DNA of 64,000 bases from an uncultured Methylococcaceae bacterium (GTDB lineage Bacteria; Pseudomonadota; Gammaproteobacteria; Methylococcales; Methylococcaceae), in the NCBI GenBank assembly GCA_903857165.1, contig CAIODU010000056.1:1-64000 (forward strand), read 5' to 3'. The notes beneath the pieces were generated by a model that saw nothing but the letters and a program-made list of their open reading frames with translations, searched no databases and was not told where the DNA came from. Positions 400 through 7,311 of the stretch are shown here, piece by piece. The translations under genes were made by a program, and so were the position numbers. Position 1 is the stretch's first letter, and each line of letters starts with the position of its first letter.

Positions 400-575
400 T
401 TGGGCAGTAAGGATGCGCTGAGGTACGAAGCGCATCATTCGCGTGACCTCGATTGATGCACCTCCCTCGTCGGCACATCCTACGATGTCAACGCGGCGCA
501 GCGGTGCTCTACTACATATTGCGCCAGATGAATAGGGCCGGGTGCGGCGAGGAACGAACCGCACCGTTCGCGTAA
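400..575. repeat. Island repeat family, composite copy
   Basis: GCGCATCATTCGCG..GATGCACCTCCCTCGTCGGCACATCCTACGATG; followed by TATTGCGCCAGATGAATAGGGCCGGGTGCGGCGAGGAACGAACCGCA. Confidence 0.65.
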
Positions 576-645
576 TTTCATCGCCTAACAGGAAGATATG
601 TGTTTTCAAATCTTTCGCGAGAACGCAAATCAAAAAGCCCAACCC

Positions 646-894
646 ATGACCAAACAAGAAAAACTGCTGACATCACTCCGAAACAATTCAAAAACGGTTC
701 GGTTTGATGATGCTTGCAAGATAGCCGAACGGCTAGGATTTTCACGACAGGGTGGTAAGGGTTCACATCGGACTTACGGCAGGATGGACGAGCCGTTTTT
801 GTTGAACTTCCAAAATCGTGGCGGGTACATCCTTCCATATCAGGCAAAACAATTACTAGACATGGTGGACAAATATGCAGACCTATCTAATTGA
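646..894 (+). CDS. hicA: HicA-like toxin (type II TA)
   Basis: MTKQEKLLTSLRNNSKTVRFDDACKIAERLGFSRQGGKGSHRTYGR: small dsRBD-like HicA pattern with GKGSHR; overlaps the HicB-like ORF. Confidence 0.7.
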   Translation: MTKQEKLLTSLRNNSKTVRFDDACKIAERLGFSRQGGKGSHRTYGRMDEPFLLNFQNRGGYILPYQAKQLLDMVDKYADLSN

Positions 895-1087
895 AACATT
901 TTGGAGCGAGGAAGATGATGCTTATCTTTGTATAGCACCGGATTTGCCCGGCTGTAGTGCTGCGGGCGATACCCCCTTAGAGGCAATACAGGAAATGCAG
1001 GATGCCATGGCTTCTTGGCTGCAAGCCTGCTCCAATATGGGTCGAGAGCTACCTTTTCCTCTGGCAAAACCTCGCAAAGCAGCCTAA
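875..1087 (+). CDS. hicB: HicB-like antitoxin
   Basis: MQTYLIETFWSEEDDAYLCIAPDLPGCSAAGDTPLEAIQEMQDAMASWL: HicB partial RNase H-like pattern. Confidence 0.75.
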   Translation: MQTYLIETFWSEEDDAYLCIAPDLPGCSAAGDTPLEAIQEMQDAMASWLQACSNMGRELPFPLAKPRKAA

Positions 1088-1227
1088 CAACACTATGCCG
1101 GACGGGATAGGTCATTCCGTCCGAAACGTTTTGTACCTTGCCGTACAAGTTACTCGAACACAAAACAACAGGGCCGGGATTACAAATCCCGCATCGCTTT
1201 GGTGTCAAGCAGTCAGGTTATTTAAAG

Positions 1228-1821
1228 ATGTCTTACAGTGATTTTGATTTGAAAAAAGCCAAATCCGCATTCAATTTGAATATTGTGGAAAAGGAGGATT
1301 TGTTTTCCAAAATCGAACGGGTTGAAATCAGCCCTTTATTGGCGGAGATACTGCAACAGAACGTGCCTCTGGCTTTGGCAATTGGCACGGAAAAAGCCAA
1401 TTCCGAGTTGATTATTGTCAATTTTTTCTTGGAATTAAAGCGCCGATCCCCAATCAGCTTTTTCTCCGGCATTGAGTTTACCGTAGACAAAGAAAAAGGG
1501 CTTAATGGATTTTGTGATTTTATCGTCAGCCAATCGCCGGAGCAATTGTTTCTGGATACCCCTATCCTAGCCGTTGTGGAGGCTAAAAACGAACGGATCG
1601 CGTCCGGCCTAGGCCAATGCGTTGCGGAAATGGTGGCAGCGAAAATTTATAACGAAAGGGAAGGCAAGCCTTTGCCCATCCTCTATGGCGCGGTGACCAC
1701 TGGCCAAGCTTGGAAATTCCTGCGGCTGCAAGGCGACACCGTTTACATTGACCTTGCCGACTACTACATAGACAACCCCGGCAAGATATTGGGGATATTG
1801 GTTGGCATGGTTGGACATTAG
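1228..1821 (+). CDS. Uncharacterised protein, PD-(D/E)XK nuclease-like
   Basis: ORF with ...GFCDFIVSQ...PILAVVEAKNE..: D...(E)xK-like core; start at ATG 1228. Confidence 0.5.
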   Translation: MSYSDFDLKKAKSAFNLNIVEKEDLFSKIERVEISPLLAEILQQNVPLALAIGTEKANSELIIVNFFLELKRRSPISFFSGIEFTVDKEKGLNGFCDFIVSQSPEQLFLDTPILAVVEAKNERIASGLGQCVAEMVAAKIYNEREGKPLPILYGAVTTGQAWKFLRLQGDTVYIDLADYYIDNPGKILGILVGMVGH

Positions 1822-2043
1822 TTAGAAGTTGTAGCTGGGCTAGGCGCACATTGGAAGAACCTTTCCGGTTGTGCTGTTATCCCAAGCTCCAGCTTGGGAA
1901 TCCCTATCGTACAAGCTTCTGCTTGCCAACATTATGGAAGCAGGCGCTTCCCAGACCTCATTCCCAAGCTGGAGCTTGGGAACGAGCAAATCCAGTTATT
2001 TCTAGATTTAAACTTTTTCCAAACATACTTTGAGAGTAAAAAA

Positions 2044-2478
2044 ATGAAAACATTTTTAGTTAATTCAAACACTAATCCTTCATGTAAAGGTCCACATTGT
2101 TTTGAATATATGATTCGTCATAACAAAGTTTGCGCTTATTATAGGACTTTCAATACACAAATAGACATTATCCTAAAAGGAGATTTAGTTCTTTTGTATC
2201 ATAACGATAATAGAATTATTGCTGTTGGTTTTGTTGTGAAGAGTTTTAGACCCCACGATTATCAGACAGATATGGGAATAGCTGATGAACACTGGGCTGA
2301 TGTTAACTGGATTTGGATAGCATCTTTTGATGACCAATTAAATCCTGTAAATCCTATAATTAGAACGGACTTAGATATTAAGATGGTTAACAGGACTGTT
2401 GTAAACATCACAGACCAATTAGATTACAGGAGTCTTTTTGAAGAAATTGGTAAAAGACAAATATATATGCCTAAGTAA
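2044..2478 (+). CDS. Uncharacterised protein, possibly EVE/PUA-like
   Basis: 144-aa ORF MKTFLVNSNTNPSCKGPHCFEYMIRHNKVCAYY...GDLVLLYHNDNRIIAVGFV; AT-rich relative to flanks. Confidence 0.4.
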   Translation: MKTFLVNSNTNPSCKGPHCFEYMIRHNKVCAYYRTFNTQIDIILKGDLVLLYHNDNRIIAVGFVVKSFRPHDYQTDMGIADEHWADVNWIWIASFDDQLNPVNPIIRTDLDIKMVNRTVVNITDQLDYRSLFEEIGKRQIYMPK

Positions 2479-2673
2479 GTCGTCTTACAACGCTATTATT
2501 AACAACTTTTAACACGGACTAGATATTTTGTCACGAAGTGTCTAAAAATAGACTTGTTCCCAACCATGTTCATGCTTTTAATACTGCCATATAATATGGC
2601 GTTTAACCCCTAATATAAACAGACAACCCATGGCCTACGAAAGATTTAAAAAGCTAGATGGTAAGAAGCACGA

Positions 2674-2786
2674 CCGTAGGATTAAGTCCATCATTCGCGA
2701 ATGATGCGCCTCCTTCGTCGGCACATCCTACTATGTCAAGGCCGTAAGGCGCAATAGCGGCTTGCCGCGTATTGCGCCGAATGAAT
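2674..2786. repeat. Island repeat family, copy
   Basis: CGTAGGAT...CATCATTCGCGAATGATGCGCCTCCTTCGTCGGCACATCCTAC plus GCGCAATAGCGGCTTGCCGCGTATTGCGCC. Confidence 0.75.
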
Positions 2787-2834
2787 AAAAAGAGCAAAAT
2801 CCATGAAACCCCGGCATTGTTTCTCTGCCCACCC

Positions 2835-2930
2835 GCCTAACCCGCCGTACCAGCCGACCCGCGCCCATCGCTTGCCGTGTTCGGTTTGGGTTCCGTGGCG
2901 GGCGCGGTCGGCTGAGCGGGGTCGTTAGGC
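2835..2930 (+). other. Integron attC-like recombination site
   Basis: GCCTAAC (RYYYAAC) at 2835-2841 and GTTAGGC (GTTRRRY) at 2924-2930; inner arms CAGCCGACC(C)GCGCCC / GGGCGCGGTCGGCTG pair with one extrahelical base. Confidence 0.75.
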
Positions 2931-3003
2931 TTATTCATCATGGCGTATTTAAAGTAGTTTTTTCAGGTCGTTAGTGCTAGGCATTTTAACTTTAGGAGTA
3001 GAT

Positions 3004-3585
3004 ATGTTATTAATTTTAAAAAACGGCAGAATTATTGACAGCAAAATCAAAAACGCGATTAGTCCAATAATAGAACATGATGACATGGTAAAAGTATCTG
3101 GAATTATCGTTCATCAAACCGGAGGATCAACTGCTAATTCTTCTCTTTCTAGTTATAAAAATAAAGGAGCAAACGGCGCACATTTTTTAATTGACAAAGA
3201 TGGAACAATTTATCAGACCGCTTCTATATACAAACAAACATGGCATGTTGGTAAATTAAAAAGTCGTTGTGTGTTGGAAAAAAGATGTTCAAAAGCAGAG
3301 ACAGAACGGAATAAAACTTACAATCCAAGTAAAGAAAACGAGCGGGAACAAAAAAAGTCCCCTCCCGACAGATTTCCATCTAACAAAGATAGTATTGGCA
3401 TTGAATTAGTTGGCGAAACTGATAAAGATGATAATTATGTTGCCGTAACTCATGAGCAAAACAAATCGCTAAAATGGCTGATTGAGCAATTAGAGTTAAC
3501 TTTATTTATCCCTTTTACTGAAGTATTTAGGCATCCAACAGTATCCAGAAAGAATCCAACTGAAGCGAATACAGCCCAATGGTAA
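3004..3585 (+). CDS. N-acetylmuramoyl-L-alanine amidase (Amidase_2/PGRP-like)
   Basis: Catalytic-type motifs IVHQTGG, GANGAHFLIDKDGTIYQ, TWHVG, SIGIELVGE, RHPTVSRKNPTEA; no signal peptide evident. Confidence 0.75.
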   Translation: MLLILKNGRIIDSKIKNAISPIIEHDDMVKVSGIIVHQTGGSTANSSLSSYKNKGANGAHFLIDKDGTIYQTASIYKQTWHVGKLKSRCVLEKRCSKAETERNKTYNPSKENEREQKKSPPDRFPSNKDSIGIELVGETDKDDNYVAVTHEQNKSLKWLIEQLELTLFIPFTEVFRHPTVSRKNPTEANTAQW

Positions 3586-4025
3586 CGTATTTACGGCTTT
3601 GGGTAGTTACAACACTCCTTTTATTTTGGAATATTAGCTATGCGAAAACCACTTGCACTACAGCAACGGAATATCAACCAGAATTATGTCGAGTTAAGTT
3701 GCCACAAATTGTATCTGTAGATATCGAAGAAAATGGTACAACCTCAAAAGCCGATAATGAAAAATCAAATTGTTCTAAATTTAAGCTTACTGTGATTGGT
3801 GTGCGGCGTTATTTTTCTAGGGCATTGGAGATAAAAAATGCTGAAGATGCTCAGCATACACTTGACTGGTTACCCTGCTATGCAAGTGGCACTATGCGTT
3901 TTGCGGATAACAGAAAAATTCATTGGACTATTTATCAAAGTCAGACGGGGAAGCTCGTTTTGGATAACAAAAAAGAGATATTTTTTTATTGTCCTGATTG
4001 TAAATTTGCACCTTTTTTGTATTGA
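3579..4025 (+). CDS. Secreted/periplasmic small Cys-containing protein, putative immunity partner
   Basis: ATGGTAA overlap with the upstream amidase stop; N-terminal signal MVTYLRLWVVTTLLLFWNISYAKTTC; ends FFYCPDCKFAPFLY. Confidence 0.55.
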   Translation: MVTYLRLWVVTTLLLFWNISYAKTTCTTATEYQPELCRVKLPQIVSVDIEENGTTSKADNEKSNCSKFKLTVIGVRRYFSRALEIKNAEDAQHTLDWLPCYASGTMRFADNRKIHWTIYQSQTGKLVLDNKKEIFFYCPDCKFAPFLY

Positions 4026-4040
4026 TACTAAAGCGATAAA

Positions 4041-4114
4041 GGGCCGTAGGATGGGCTGAGCTTGCGAAGCCCATCAATCGCGAATGATGCGCCTCCTTCG
4101 TCGGCACATCCTAC
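4041..4114. repeat. Island repeat family, copy
   Basis: GGGCCGTAGGATGGGCTGAGCTTGCGAAGCCCATCAATCGCGAATGATGCGCCTCCTTCGTCGGCACATCCTACGAT. Confidence 0.8.
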
Positions 4115-4213
4115 GATGATTGCAAGCAAGTTTTTTATCAGGGTGTTCACATGACGGAAACCTTATGCTCGTCCAGCATTGACAGATTGTAGTCTTGCGG
4201 CTACAGTTCATCT

Positions 4214-4504
4214 ATGATTGAAATCCGCAAGACTGAGGCATACGCTCTGTGGCTGGATGGACTGCGCGACCTAAATGCAAGAGCGCGCATTCAGGTTCGT
4301 GTTGAACGATTGGCTGCGGGTAATGCAGGAGATGTTAAACCTGTAGGCGAAGGTGTATCCGAGTTGCGAATCGATTACGGTCCTGGTTATCGGGTGTACT
4401 TCACAATGCGTGGTCGCGAGTTGGTGATTCTGCTGGCGGGTGGCGATAAGCGAACACAAGCCACGGACATAAAAACTGCCCTGCGCCTCGCACGCAATCT
4501 GTAA
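4214..4504 (+). CDS. RelE/ParE-superfamily addiction module killer protein (HigB-like)
   Basis: MIEIRKTEAYALWLDGLRDLNARARIQVRVERLAAGNAGDVKPVGEGVSELRIDYGPGYRVYF.. typical motif. Confidence 0.85.
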   Translation: MIEIRKTEAYALWLDGLRDLNARARIQVRVERLAAGNAGDVKPVGEGVSELRIDYGPGYRVYFTMRGRELVILLAGGDKRTQATDIKTALRLARNL

Positions 4505-4513
4505 TAACACATT

Positions 4514-4858
4514 ATGAGCAAAACAGTTACCACTCGTTATGATGTTGCCGAACACCTCCGAACCCCGGAAGAAATGGCCGCCTATTTGGATGCTTGCTTT
4601 GAAGAAGCAGATGGCAATTCAGCATTCATTGCCAAAGCGCTTGGCGACATCGCTCGTGCTAAAGGCATGTCGCAGATCGCCCGCGATGCTGGGCTATCTC
4701 GCGAAAGTCTTTACAAAGCCCTCTCCGGTGAGCGTAGCCCCGACTTCGATACTATTCTAAAAGTAGTGAATGCACTAGGCTTGAAGTTGCACACCGAAGC
4801 CAGAGTGGTAATGCGCAATAGCGGCGGCTTGCCTCGTATTGCGTCGGAAGGGCCGTAG
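4514..4858 (+). CDS. Addiction module antidote protein (HTH)
   Basis: AEHLRTPEEMAAYLDACFEEADGN..FIAKALGDIARAKGMSQIARDAGLSRESLYKALSGE; follows the RelE-like gene. Confidence 0.85.
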   Translation: MSKTVTTRYDVAEHLRTPEEMAAYLDACFEEADGNSAFIAKALGDIARAKGMSQIARDAGLSRESLYKALSGERSPDFDTILKVVNALGLKLHTEARVVMRNSGGLPRIASEGP

Positions 4859-4923
4859 GATGGGCTGAGCTTGCGAAGCCCATCATTCGCGAATGATGCG
4901 CATCCTTCGCCGGCACATCCTAT
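4813..4923. repeat. Island repeat family, copy overlapping the 3' end of a HigA-family gene
   Basis: GCGCAATAGCGGCGGCTTGCCTCGTATTGCGTCGGAAGGGCCGTAGGATGGGCTGAGCTTGCGAAGCCCATCATTCGCGAATGATGCGC. Confidence 0.8.
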
Positions 4924-4994
4924 GCGAGTCTCTTAATATGGCCTAACATTCCGTTCCAGCGCGCGCGCCCGCGCCACGAAGCGGCTTCGTGTTT

Positions 4995-5093
4995 TCAAGA
5001 CAACACAGCATTCGCATAAACGATCAATTCCGTGTGTGCTTTGTATGGACTAGCGAGGGGCCAAAAGATGTCGAGATTGTTGATTACCATTAA
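4995..5093 (+). pseudogene. higB: higB toxin 3' remnant
   Basis: In-frame SRQHSIRINDQFRVCFVWTSEGPKDVEIVDYH*, the conserved HigB C-terminus, with no N-terminus. Confidence 0.8.
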
Positions 5094-5105
5094 TGGAGCC
5101 TTGCC

Positions 5106-5432
5106 ATGAGCAATACAAACAAGCTTCCGCCAGTTACTCCAGGTGAAATTCTACTTGAAGAACTCCTGAAACCGATGGGAATTTCTCAATATCGACTGGC
5201 TAAGGAAATTGGCGTTCCCGCTCAACGAATTAGTGAAATTGTCGCTGGTCGTCGTGCAATTACGGCCGACACTGATTTAAGGTTGTGCCGATTTTTTGGG
5301 CTATCCGAAGGATGGTGGCTACGCGGTCAGGCGCGTCATGATACCGAATGCGCCAAGGATGTTCTAGCAGCAACATTGTCCAAAATTAGGCCGTGGACGG
5401 AAGTGATCACCAATATCGCCGCCCATTCCTAA
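5106..5432 (+). CDS. higA: HigA-family antitoxin (XRE)
   Basis: LPPVTPGEILLEELLKPMGISQYRLAKEIGVPAQRISEIVAGRRAITADTDLRLCRFFGLSEGWWL. Confidence 0.9.
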   Translation: MSNTNKLPPVTPGEILLEELLKPMGISQYRLAKEIGVPAQRISEIVAGRRAITADTDLRLCRFFGLSEGWWLRGQARHDTECAKDVLAATLSKIRPWTEVITNIAAHS

Positions 5433-5581
5433 CCCACGCTCAAGTTTGCCCCTTGCTGAGTATTGCGCCATATGGAAAAGCAAAGAGCATTAGGGCCGCA
5501 GGACGCAATGCGAAGCAATTGTACGGACTCTGTCCATCATGCTATTTGCAAAACATACGGCATTGCCATATTATGGGACTA

Positions 5582-5905
5582 ATGTTTACTCTCATCGAAT
5601 CCCCAATTTTTTCAAAGCGTTGGCCTGACTACTGGTCAGAAGAAGAACGTGGAAAATTTGCTGCTTGGCTTGCGCAGAACCCGGAAGTGGGAGATGTGGT
5701 TCTTGGATCAGGCGGGGTTCGCAAAGTCCGCTGGCCGAGCGAAGGTCAAGGAAAACGCGGGGGCGTAAGAGTCATCTACTATAACCAGATTGGCAAAAAT
5801 TTGATTTGGCTTCTGACCGTCTATGCCAAATCCCACCAAAAGAATGCCCCATCGCATATTCTCAAAGCACTGAAAGAGGAGCTTATAAATGATAATAATG
5901 AATGA
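5582..5905 (+). CDS. RelE/HigB2-like toxin
   Basis: MFTLIESPIFSKRWPDYWSEEERGKFAAWLAQNPEVGDVVLGSGGVRKVRWPSEGQGKRGGVRVIYY..IWLLTVYAKS. Confidence 0.85.
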   Translation: MFTLIESPIFSKRWPDYWSEEERGKFAAWLAQNPEVGDVVLGSGGVRKVRWPSEGQGKRGGVRVIYYNQIGKNLIWLLTVYAKSHQKNAPSHILKALKEELINDNNE

Positions 5906-6206
5906 AAATGAGCTGGTTGAGCGCGATCTAAAACGCGATGTGTGGCAAGAAGCCTTAGATGCTGTGAGAAGTATTAAAGCAGGGAATGTCGGCACTATCC
6001 ACGCAATTGATATTAAACCTTTTCCCGTTGCCGAAGCTAGAAACAAAACCGGGCTTTCCCAAGCAAAGTTCGCGGAGCTTCTCGGCGTATCGGTCAGAAC
6101 CCTGCAAGATTGGGAGCAAGGCCGAAGGCAACCAAGCCGGGCAGCCGCATCTTTGATTCAAATTGCAAAAAAACGTCCAGACGTGCTCAATGAGATTTTT
6201 GGGTAA
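5889..6206 (+). CDS. XRE-family antitoxin (HigA2/NadS-like)
   Basis: RNKTGLSQAKFAELLGVSVRTLQDWEQGRRQPSRAAASLIQIAKKRPDVL; overlaps the toxin gene. Confidence 0.85.
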   Translation: MIIMNENELVERDLKRDVWQEALDAVRSIKAGNVGTIHAIDIKPFPVAEARNKTGLSQAKFAELLGVSVRTLQDWEQGRRQPSRAAASLIQIAKKRPDVLNEIFG

Positions 6207-6259
6207 CTTAGGGCCGGGTGTGGTGAGGAACGAACCGCATCATCGGGTTGTATATCTGA

Positions 6260-6435: not shown

Positions 6436-6510
6436 AAAGCGTATCCAAGGGAGTCACCACATATACACACAGGCTGGTAATCCAAAAATTCTTACGGTTC
6501 CTAACTGCAA

Positions 6511-7311
6511 TTAGAAACTATGCTCCTCCGCCGGGAATCTTCCGCTGCGGACAGCCAGTGCATAGGCGCGTATGGCAGAGGGTATGTCGCCCGCTTCCGC
6601 CATGAAATCCTTCACAAAGCGGGGGCGTTTGCCTTCCCCCAAGCCCAGCAGGTCATGCAGCACCAAGACCTGCCCGTCACAACCCACTCCCGCACCGATG
6701 CCAATCACGGGAATGTCCAGCGCACTGGCTATTTCATCCCCCAATGCGGCCGGTATGCACTCGACAACCAGCAGGCCGGCACCGGCCTCTTGCAATAGGA
6801 GCGCGTCCTCCAGCAGGGCTTGTGCGGCACGATCCTCCCGACCCTGCACTAGGTAACCGCCAAGGTGATTAATGGACTGTGGCAACAGCCCAAGATGCCC
6901 ACAAACCGGGATGCCCTGCCCTACCAAGAAGCGCACGATGTCCGCCCGGTTGCGCCCGCCCTCCAGCTTGACCATCTGCGCATGTCCTTCGCGAATCAAG
7001 CGCGCAGCGTTTTCGGCTGCCCGTTCCGGTGTCGGATAGGTCATGAAGGGCAAGTCGGCCAGCAACAACGCCCGCTGGGTCCCTCTCGCCACGCAGCGCG
7101 TGTGGTAGACCATGTCATCCAGAGACGTGGGCAACGTGGTCTCATGGCCCTGAATCACCATGCCGAGCGAGTCGCCGACCAAGATGACATCCACCCCGGC
7201 ATTGTCCAGCGTGTGGGCGAAAATTGCGTCATAGGCGGTCAACACGACGATTTTCTCACCGCGTGACTTCATGGCCGCCAACTCAGGCACGGTGATTGCC
7301 GGGCTAGTCAT
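6511..7311 (-). CDS. panB: 3-methyl-2-oxobutanoate hydroxymethyltransferase
   Basis: MTSPAITVPELAAMKSRGEKIVVLTAYDAIFAHTLDNAGVDVILVGDSLGMVIQGHETTLPTSLDDMVYHTR. Confidence 0.97.
   Translation of the reverse strand: MTSPAITVPELAAMKSRGEKIVVLTAYDAIFAHTLDNAGVDVILVGDSLGMVIQGHETTLPTSLDDMVYHTRCVARGTQRALLLADLPFMTYPTPERAAENAARLIREGHAQMVKLEGGRNRADIVRFLVGQGIPVCGHLGLLPQSINHLGGYLVQGREDRAAQALLEDALLLQEAGAGLLVVECIPAALGDEIASALDIPVIGIGAGVGCDGQVLVLHDLLGLGEGKRPRFVKDFMAEAGDIPSAIRAYALAVRSGRFPAEEHSF

Follow-up and report, generated by a model that had tools for sequence, protein, structure and literature searches.

How does a peptidoglycan amidase that lacks a signal peptide come to act on the cell wall, and why does its gene overlap that of an exported protein? 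This question is raised by two genes in a 64,000-nucleotide stretch of DNA from an uncultured Methylococcaceae bacterium (bases 1 to 64000 of the 78-kb contig C56, from an assembly of 4.9 Mb in 428 contigs), which we call the window. A preliminary description had read them as a candidate effector-immunity pair following the Tae/Tai logic of type VI secretion systems (T6SSs). On the basis of the linkage of the partner to the amidase, the linkage of the pair to hcp or a T6SS core cluster, the invariant residues, the matching distance matrices of the two families and the presence of a T6SS in the genome, we conclude that they very probably encode an antibacterial T6SS amidase effector and its periplasmic immunity protein. 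The T6SS logic thus holds for the functional class, as the partner and the hcp/T6SS linkage indicate, but not for membership in the Tae1-4/Tai families, and the novelty of this T6SS amidase effector-immunity pair is that of a new family, not of a new kind of system. The features of the pair are as follows.

2994..2998, plus strand: AGGAG, probable ribosome binding site of the amidase gene, read from the sequence
3004..3585, plus strand: predicted peptidoglycan amidase effector, 193 residues, Amidase_2/AmpD-PGRP fold, without signal peptide (Pfam, AlphaFold [AF2] and Foldseek)
3579..4025, plus strand: exported (periplasmic) partner, putative immunity protein, 148 residues, signal peptide 1-22
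3579..3585, plus strand: ATGGTAA overlap of both frames, with the partner start inside the amidase end

Conservation of the amidase-partner pair

The amidase frame (21.9 kDa; pI 9.1) starts 5 bases past the AGGAG motif and shares ATGGTAA with the partner gene, as the preliminary description had noticed. Judged by its recurrence, this overlap is not due to chance, since the same offset of -7 is found in 47 of 81 relatives; an offset of -10 is found in another 15. These relatives come from a scan of 84,980 species genomes with the amidase as the sole query, a choice that does not favor partner-bearing loci. The scan recovered 80 loci from more than 20 genera of Alpha-, Beta-, and Gammaproteobacteria, which together with the window and one IMG/VR contig make up the 82 amidases analyzed. 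An open partner frame of at least 90 residues lies directly downstream of 81 of them; the N terminus is clearly hydrophobic in 79 of these 81 frames, and a single hidden Markov model family takes in 77. In the exception, from Lampropedia (L079), the amidase frame is interrupted by a stop codon, and the disrupted partner remnant still starts with ATGGTAA and retains family-like sequence. Every relative found therefore has an exported partner or a remnant of one downstream, which is the conserved amidase neighborhood that the preliminary description had proposed looking for.

The distance matrices of the amidase and partner families are strongly correlated (r = 0.845, against at most 0.137 in 1,000 permutations), with the shared ancestry of the hosts accounting for part of this correlation. 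Mean identity is 26% among the partners versus 51% among the amidases, i.e., the partner diverges faster, as expected for immunity proteins. Partner genes are also found beside a truncated amidase (genome G030), beside a frameshifted amidase with the partner frame open (G121, where a sequencing error in the draft is possible) and, in five further cases, with no amidase within 1.3 kb, while one Erwinia rhapontici plasmid carries two partner copies in tandem. The partners beside broken or absent amidases fit an orphan-immunity pattern, in which immunity would be kept after toxin loss.

Linkage to type VI secretion

A gene for Hcp ends 13 to 79 bp before the amidase gene in 32 of the 81 loci, in Massilia, Burkholderia, Variovorax, Trinickia, Erwinia, Cupriavidus, Serratia, Xenophilus, Comamonas, and further Burkholderiaceae. 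On the Erwinia rhapontici plasmids, the amidase gene is preceded by one that carries the annotation T6SS tube protein Hcp (pERA54) or matches T6SS_HCP (Pfam, 2e-25). The order in Collimonas antrihumi (L088) is clpV, tssB, tssC, amidase, partner, hcp, and, farther along, tssK and then vgrG, so that tssC and hcp flank the pair inside a T6SS core cluster. The genome of the window itself has three VipB/TssC loci, one of them in a cluster with tssM, tssB, tssC, hcp, tssE, and tssF. Because the partner is always downstream and the link to hcp or the location in a T6SS core recurs, the T6SS effector-immunity logic is well supported. The pair also shows the other marks of this functional class, namely, a peptidoglycan hydrolase without a signal peptide and an adjacent gene for an exported partner whose linkage is conserved. 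We thereby define a widespread amidase/immunity family that is hcp linked in about ten genera.

Several observations weigh against this assignment. T6SS linkage is a property of the family and not of the window copy, which no hcp, vgrG, or PAAR gene adjoins, and 47 of the 81 relatives have no recognized T6SS gene within 6 kb among the families listed in a neighbor scan. The scans of the loci without hcp covered the best 25 families each, and some of the neighboring open reading frames (ORFs) are spurious because they were chosen by length; among the families listed, the neighbors are mostly housekeeping genes, and the only T6SS matches are VipA and VipB, one protein each, both from L088. The relatives are not independent, with many from Erwinia and Burkholderia, though the hcp linkage covers about ten genera. 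Finally, four Paracidovorax/Acidovorax loci (L082, L085, L086, and L104) have an exported partner of another family. The latter loci have the same amidase family and the same overlap as the others, yet an unrelated exported partner, and replacement of the immunity gene is possible there.

Delivery of the same kind of pair by another machine, a bacteria-killing type IV secretion system (X-T4SS), can also be conceived, given that some X-T4SS effectors contain PF01510 amidase domains and are paired with periplasmic lipoprotein inhibitors (PMC6536674). We consider it very improbable. It is contradicted by the repeated hcp linkage and the location in a T6SS core, by the position of the partner, which is downstream in all loci whereas X-Tfi genes are usually upstream (PMC6536674), and by the signal peptide of the window partner, which is plain and has no lipobox. 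Further, the amidase is a single-domain protein whose 193 residues are filled by the catalytic domain, leaving no space for an extra secretion signal domain.

The amidase and its putative active site

The preliminary description had recognized Amidase_2-type motifs (IVHQT, TWHVG, GIELVG, and RHPTVS) in the amidase, in agreement with its match to Pfam Amidase_2 (E = 1e-17). It was likewise right about the missing signal peptide, as there is no hydrophobic N terminus, and in the AlphaFold model (predicted local distance difference test [pLDDT] score of 97) the N-terminal residues fold and pack into the domain. Within this single domain lies a family-specific central stretch. Of the two folds that the preliminary description had proposed checking, that of the amidase could be assigned, and that of the partner could not (see below): Foldseek relates the amidase model to AmpD (E = 2.5e-7), and its best matches among PDB folds are AmpD, XlyA, LysC, and AmpDh2/3 (template modeling [TM] scores of ~0.5 to 0.6; ~20% identity), with T7 lysozyme also among the matches. 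The PDB sequence matches of the family profile are only AmpDh2 and AmpDh3, which are the best, and XlyA. Sequence and model together indicate that the enzyme is a member of the AmpD/PGRP superfamily and not of the papain-like Tae1-4 families.

The residues invariant in the 82 amidase sequences are H37, Y51, H60, E134, H177, K183, and E187. By their spacing, we take H37, H177, and E187 to correspond to the AmpD metal ligands His34, His154, and Asp164 and E134 to correspond to the AmpD catalytic Glu116. H37, H177, and E187 are therefore putative zinc ligands, and E134 is a putative catalytic residue. If this mapping holds, the third metal ligand would be a Glu in place of an Asp or Cys, and the invariant Glu in the position of the AmpD Asp ligand offers a testable feature of the family.

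Because the fold of the amidase is nearest to AmpD, one might suppose a housekeeping role, either as a cytosolic recycling amidase of the AmpD type or as an autolysin, with the envelope partner serving as a regulatory inhibitor. However, the amidase scores only 29 bits against the NCBIfam AmpD model, for which the cutoff is 143; the G+C content of the pair is 35%, versus 53% across the window; the partner is patchily distributed, with homologs in only 6 of 301 relatives and, across the class, in only 7 of 369 genomes (the own genome included in both); and the hcp linkage is foreign to such a role, which we regard as exceedingly improbable. Equally hard to credit is a phage or prophage lysis module made up of an endolysin and a spanin-like exported protein. 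Amidase_2 endolysins do exist, and XlyA and T7 lysozyme are among the fold matches, but the pair has no match in 50,697 phage records and is seen in a single IMG/VR contig, no phage genes lie nearby, the partner is not spanin-like, and the hcp linkage again speaks against it. In view of the search of the phage records, we rejected a phage origin of the pair.

The exported partner

The signal peptide of the partner, as judged by inspection, is MVTYLRLWVVTTLLLFWNISYA, followed by K at the start of a mature part of 126 residues with 6 Cys, close to the approximately 125 residues that had been estimated. The C terminus had been misread as FFYCPDCKF; the protein actually ends in FFYCPDCKFAPFLY. The label "Cys-rich" suits the window copy but not the family, across which only C65 and C100 are invariant, a pattern consistent with a periplasmic disulfide between these two residues. 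The AF2 model (pLDDT score of 87) has a signal helix followed by a mixed fold of five longer strands and two helices. This model retrieved no match below E = 1 among PDB folds and none below E = 0.7 among viral structures, a PDB sequence search found no relative, the window protein matches no Pfam family at the cutoff, and the partner family has no Pfam or NCBIfam model. We therefore rejected its assignment to a known inhibitor family. Given that the immunity half has neither a Pfam/NCBIfam model nor a PDB fold match, databases label these genes "peptidoglycan recognition family protein" and "hypothetical protein."

Proposed mechanism

For the T6SS effector-immunity pair, the following course can be conceived. 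The 22-kDa amidase would be synthesized in the cytoplasm, where it does not meet its substrate, and, as suggested by the hcp linkage and its small size, would probably be loaded as cargo in the Hcp tube. For the window copy, such delivery by Hcp is an inference, as no T6SS gene is adjacent here and no recognized one lies within 6 kb in the 47 relatives noted above. The T6SS would then inject the amidase into the periplasm of a neighboring cell, where the zinc amidase of the AmpD/PGRP fold may cut peptidoglycan, at the N-acetylmuramic acid (MurNAc)-L-Ala bond expected from the fold, so that the target cell would lyse. The translationally coupled partner is predicted to be Sec exported and to reside in the periplasm of the producer, probably stabilized by the C65-C100 disulfide, and to block the amidase when siblings fire it. 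What the data show directly is the gene structure, the enzyme family, the invariance of the putative active-site residues, the nearly universal linkage of the partner, the linkage to hcp or other T6SS genes in relatives, and the T6SS of this genome; secretion, the bond cut, toxicity, binding, and immunity are what we infer for the pair.

The integron context

The preliminary description had further placed the pair directly after an attC-like site and suggested that it might be an integron cassette. The features that bear on this are as follows.

2835..2930, plus strand: complete attC, R'' GCCTAAC ... R' GTTAGGC (covariance model, 83 bits)
4039..4125, no strand assigned: palindromic interspersed (REP-like) repeat behind the pair (repeat families D1/D2)
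4941..4960, plus strand: 5' half attC GCCTAACATTCCGTTCCAGC behind the next gene pair, with no recognizable R' half

The site is a genuine attC upstream of the amidase, whose start (3004) is 73 bp behind the attC end (2930). The covariance model (E < 1e-5) counts 28 attC sites in the genome, this one among them; the 25-base core of the window attC has 20 genome copies at 3 or fewer mismatches, with 0 for the reversed control, and the same genome encodes an IntI (TIGR02249, 472 bits; curated cutoff, 265). Integron cassettes are by convention taken to end with their attC, so the site belongs to the preceding gene, and we rejected the notion that it is part of the amidase gene. Before it lies a 144-residue ORF (2044-2478) with weak similarity to the EVE domain (E = 0.025), which, if real, would be the cassette gene belonging to this attC. 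It is the only full attC that the covariance model finds in the window, and hence no complete attC lies 3' of the amidase-partner pair there. What follows the pair is the repeat at 4039-4125, a HigB-like/helix-turn-helix (HTH) gene pair, and then the half site, which has 0 mismatches to the array consensus (0.01 expected by chance). The genome thus has an integron and the amidase gene starts directly behind an attC, but the pair has no 3' attC of its own. It therefore lies at a cassette boundary and, because the attC is upstream and no complete one follows, is at most a candidate cassette.

Palindromic interspersed repeats of the GGATGGGCT..GGCACATCCTACGATG type occur at four places in the window (450-494, 2656-2742, 4039-4125, and 4848-4934), and three of these immediately follow a gene or precede an attC site.

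Sequence in common with six same-genus genomes starts at about base 6500 (panB), and the genes of bases 640 to 6200 have no match in the panB neighborhood fetched from these genomes; the pair therefore lies in strain-specific DNA. Around it are probable toxin-antitoxin genes of the HicA/HicB-like type and of the Gp49/HigB-like type with HTH partners (643-1087, 4214-4858, 5106-5432, and 5579-6209). These neighbors, the absence of the region from the six panB neighborhoods, the lack of hcp or vgrG beside the pair, and the relatives with a dead amidase and an intact partner would all suit a pair that is effector-immunity by origin and serves here only as a defensive or addiction/stability element of the integron region, its amidase no longer delivered. 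We regard this as unlikely: the window amidase is intact, as are its putative active-site residues, the genome has a T6SS, and addiction alone is a poor fit because it is not obvious that a peptidoglycan amidase confined to the cytosol would be toxic.

The integron is chromosomal and extends over C281 (14587-15531) and contigs C48, C104, C195, C272, and C86, with the IntI and the ~28 attC sites; its cassettes include HicA/HicB, HigB/HTH, a CAP12-type TIR domain, a NADAR-DarT1 antitoxin, and proteases. Two further effector-like modules lie in this genome (G000). On contig C8 (L165; 6472-8897), an attC (6472-6562) is followed 35 bp on by a gene for a DcrB/DUF1795 protein (EagR-like chaperone), one for a PAAR-domain protein whose C-terminal part is rich in glycine, and an overlapping gene whose product has several hydrophobic segments and is probably a membrane protein; the arrangement resembles a full T6SS effector-immunity module placed after an attC. 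On the minus strand of C104 (L140/L166; 600-1674), an attC (1584-1674) is followed 79 bp on by a Tse2-like ADP-ribosyltransferase gene (Pfam, 4.7e-15), a small 89-residue ORF, and an insertion sequence (IS)-like transposase frame recognized by eye, which sits where the attC of the cassette is expected and could explain why it is missing. The EagR and PAAR assignments are by family, and Tse2-like proteins can also be components of toxin-antitoxin systems.

Three effector-like modules at ~28 attC sites are above expectation if ~0.4% of genes are effectors, by a rough, after-the-fact estimate. It is conceivable, and we put it forward only tentatively, that the sedentary chromosomal integron is a bank of T6SS effector-immunity modules whose integrase would supply and reshuffle the T6SS arsenal. 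If integrons do capture such pairs, they would offer bacteria a route to exchange T6SS weapons and antidotes; a 2017 study of Vibrio found no evidence for this mechanism (PMC5361080).

Comparison with known systems

In overall organization, the pair resembles Tae1-Tae4/Tai1-Tai4, including Serratia Ssp1/Ssp2-Rap1a/Rap2a, in which a small peptidoglycan-cutting effector is adjacent to an immunity gene with a signal peptide and which, like the hcp-linked relatives, often lie by a T6SS cluster. Tae1-4 are cysteine peptidases with a papain/NlpC-like Cys-His fold; the window enzyme instead has the Amidase_2/AmpD fold, and its family matches no solved Tae structure by sequence or fold. Similarly, the partner matches no solved Tai or Tsi protein.

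The nearest functional parallel is AmpDh3 (PA0807)/AmpDh3i (PA0808) of Pseudomonas aeruginosa, listed in a table of PMC10281587 as an Amidase_2 T6SS effector with a dedicated immunity gene; Wang et al. 2020, as cited in PMC12494544, is the source for AmpDh3 as a T6SS effector. Both enzymes are amidases of the AmpD superfamily with an Amidase_2 catalytic domain, AmpDh3 being a zinc amidase directed against the cell walls of competitors. However, their similarity is remote (profile E = 0.0027; 18% identity; TM scores of 0.54/0.42), and the window amidase, being single domain, shares neither subfamily nor domain architecture with AmpDh3. Judged by sequence and model, it thus represents a subfamily that is distinct from Tae1-4 and only remotely related to AmpDh3. 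AmpDh3i is set beside the window partner by description and not as a homolog.

TseP of Aeromonas dhakensis is a T6SS effector with Zn-dependent amidase activity that is neutralized by the immunity protein TsiP (PMC11893102). Unlike the window amidase, it is a larger, two-domain amidase-lysozyme effector on VgrG2, and its zinc-site residues differ. With respect to the integron, the closest precedent is TseH/TsiH of Vibrio cholerae, a T6SS effector-immunity module that lies 3.5 kb from the chromosomal integron and outside the array, for which the authors state that there is no evidence of integrase-mediated insertion (PMC5361080). In contrast, the three modules described here start 35 to 79 bp behind an attC.
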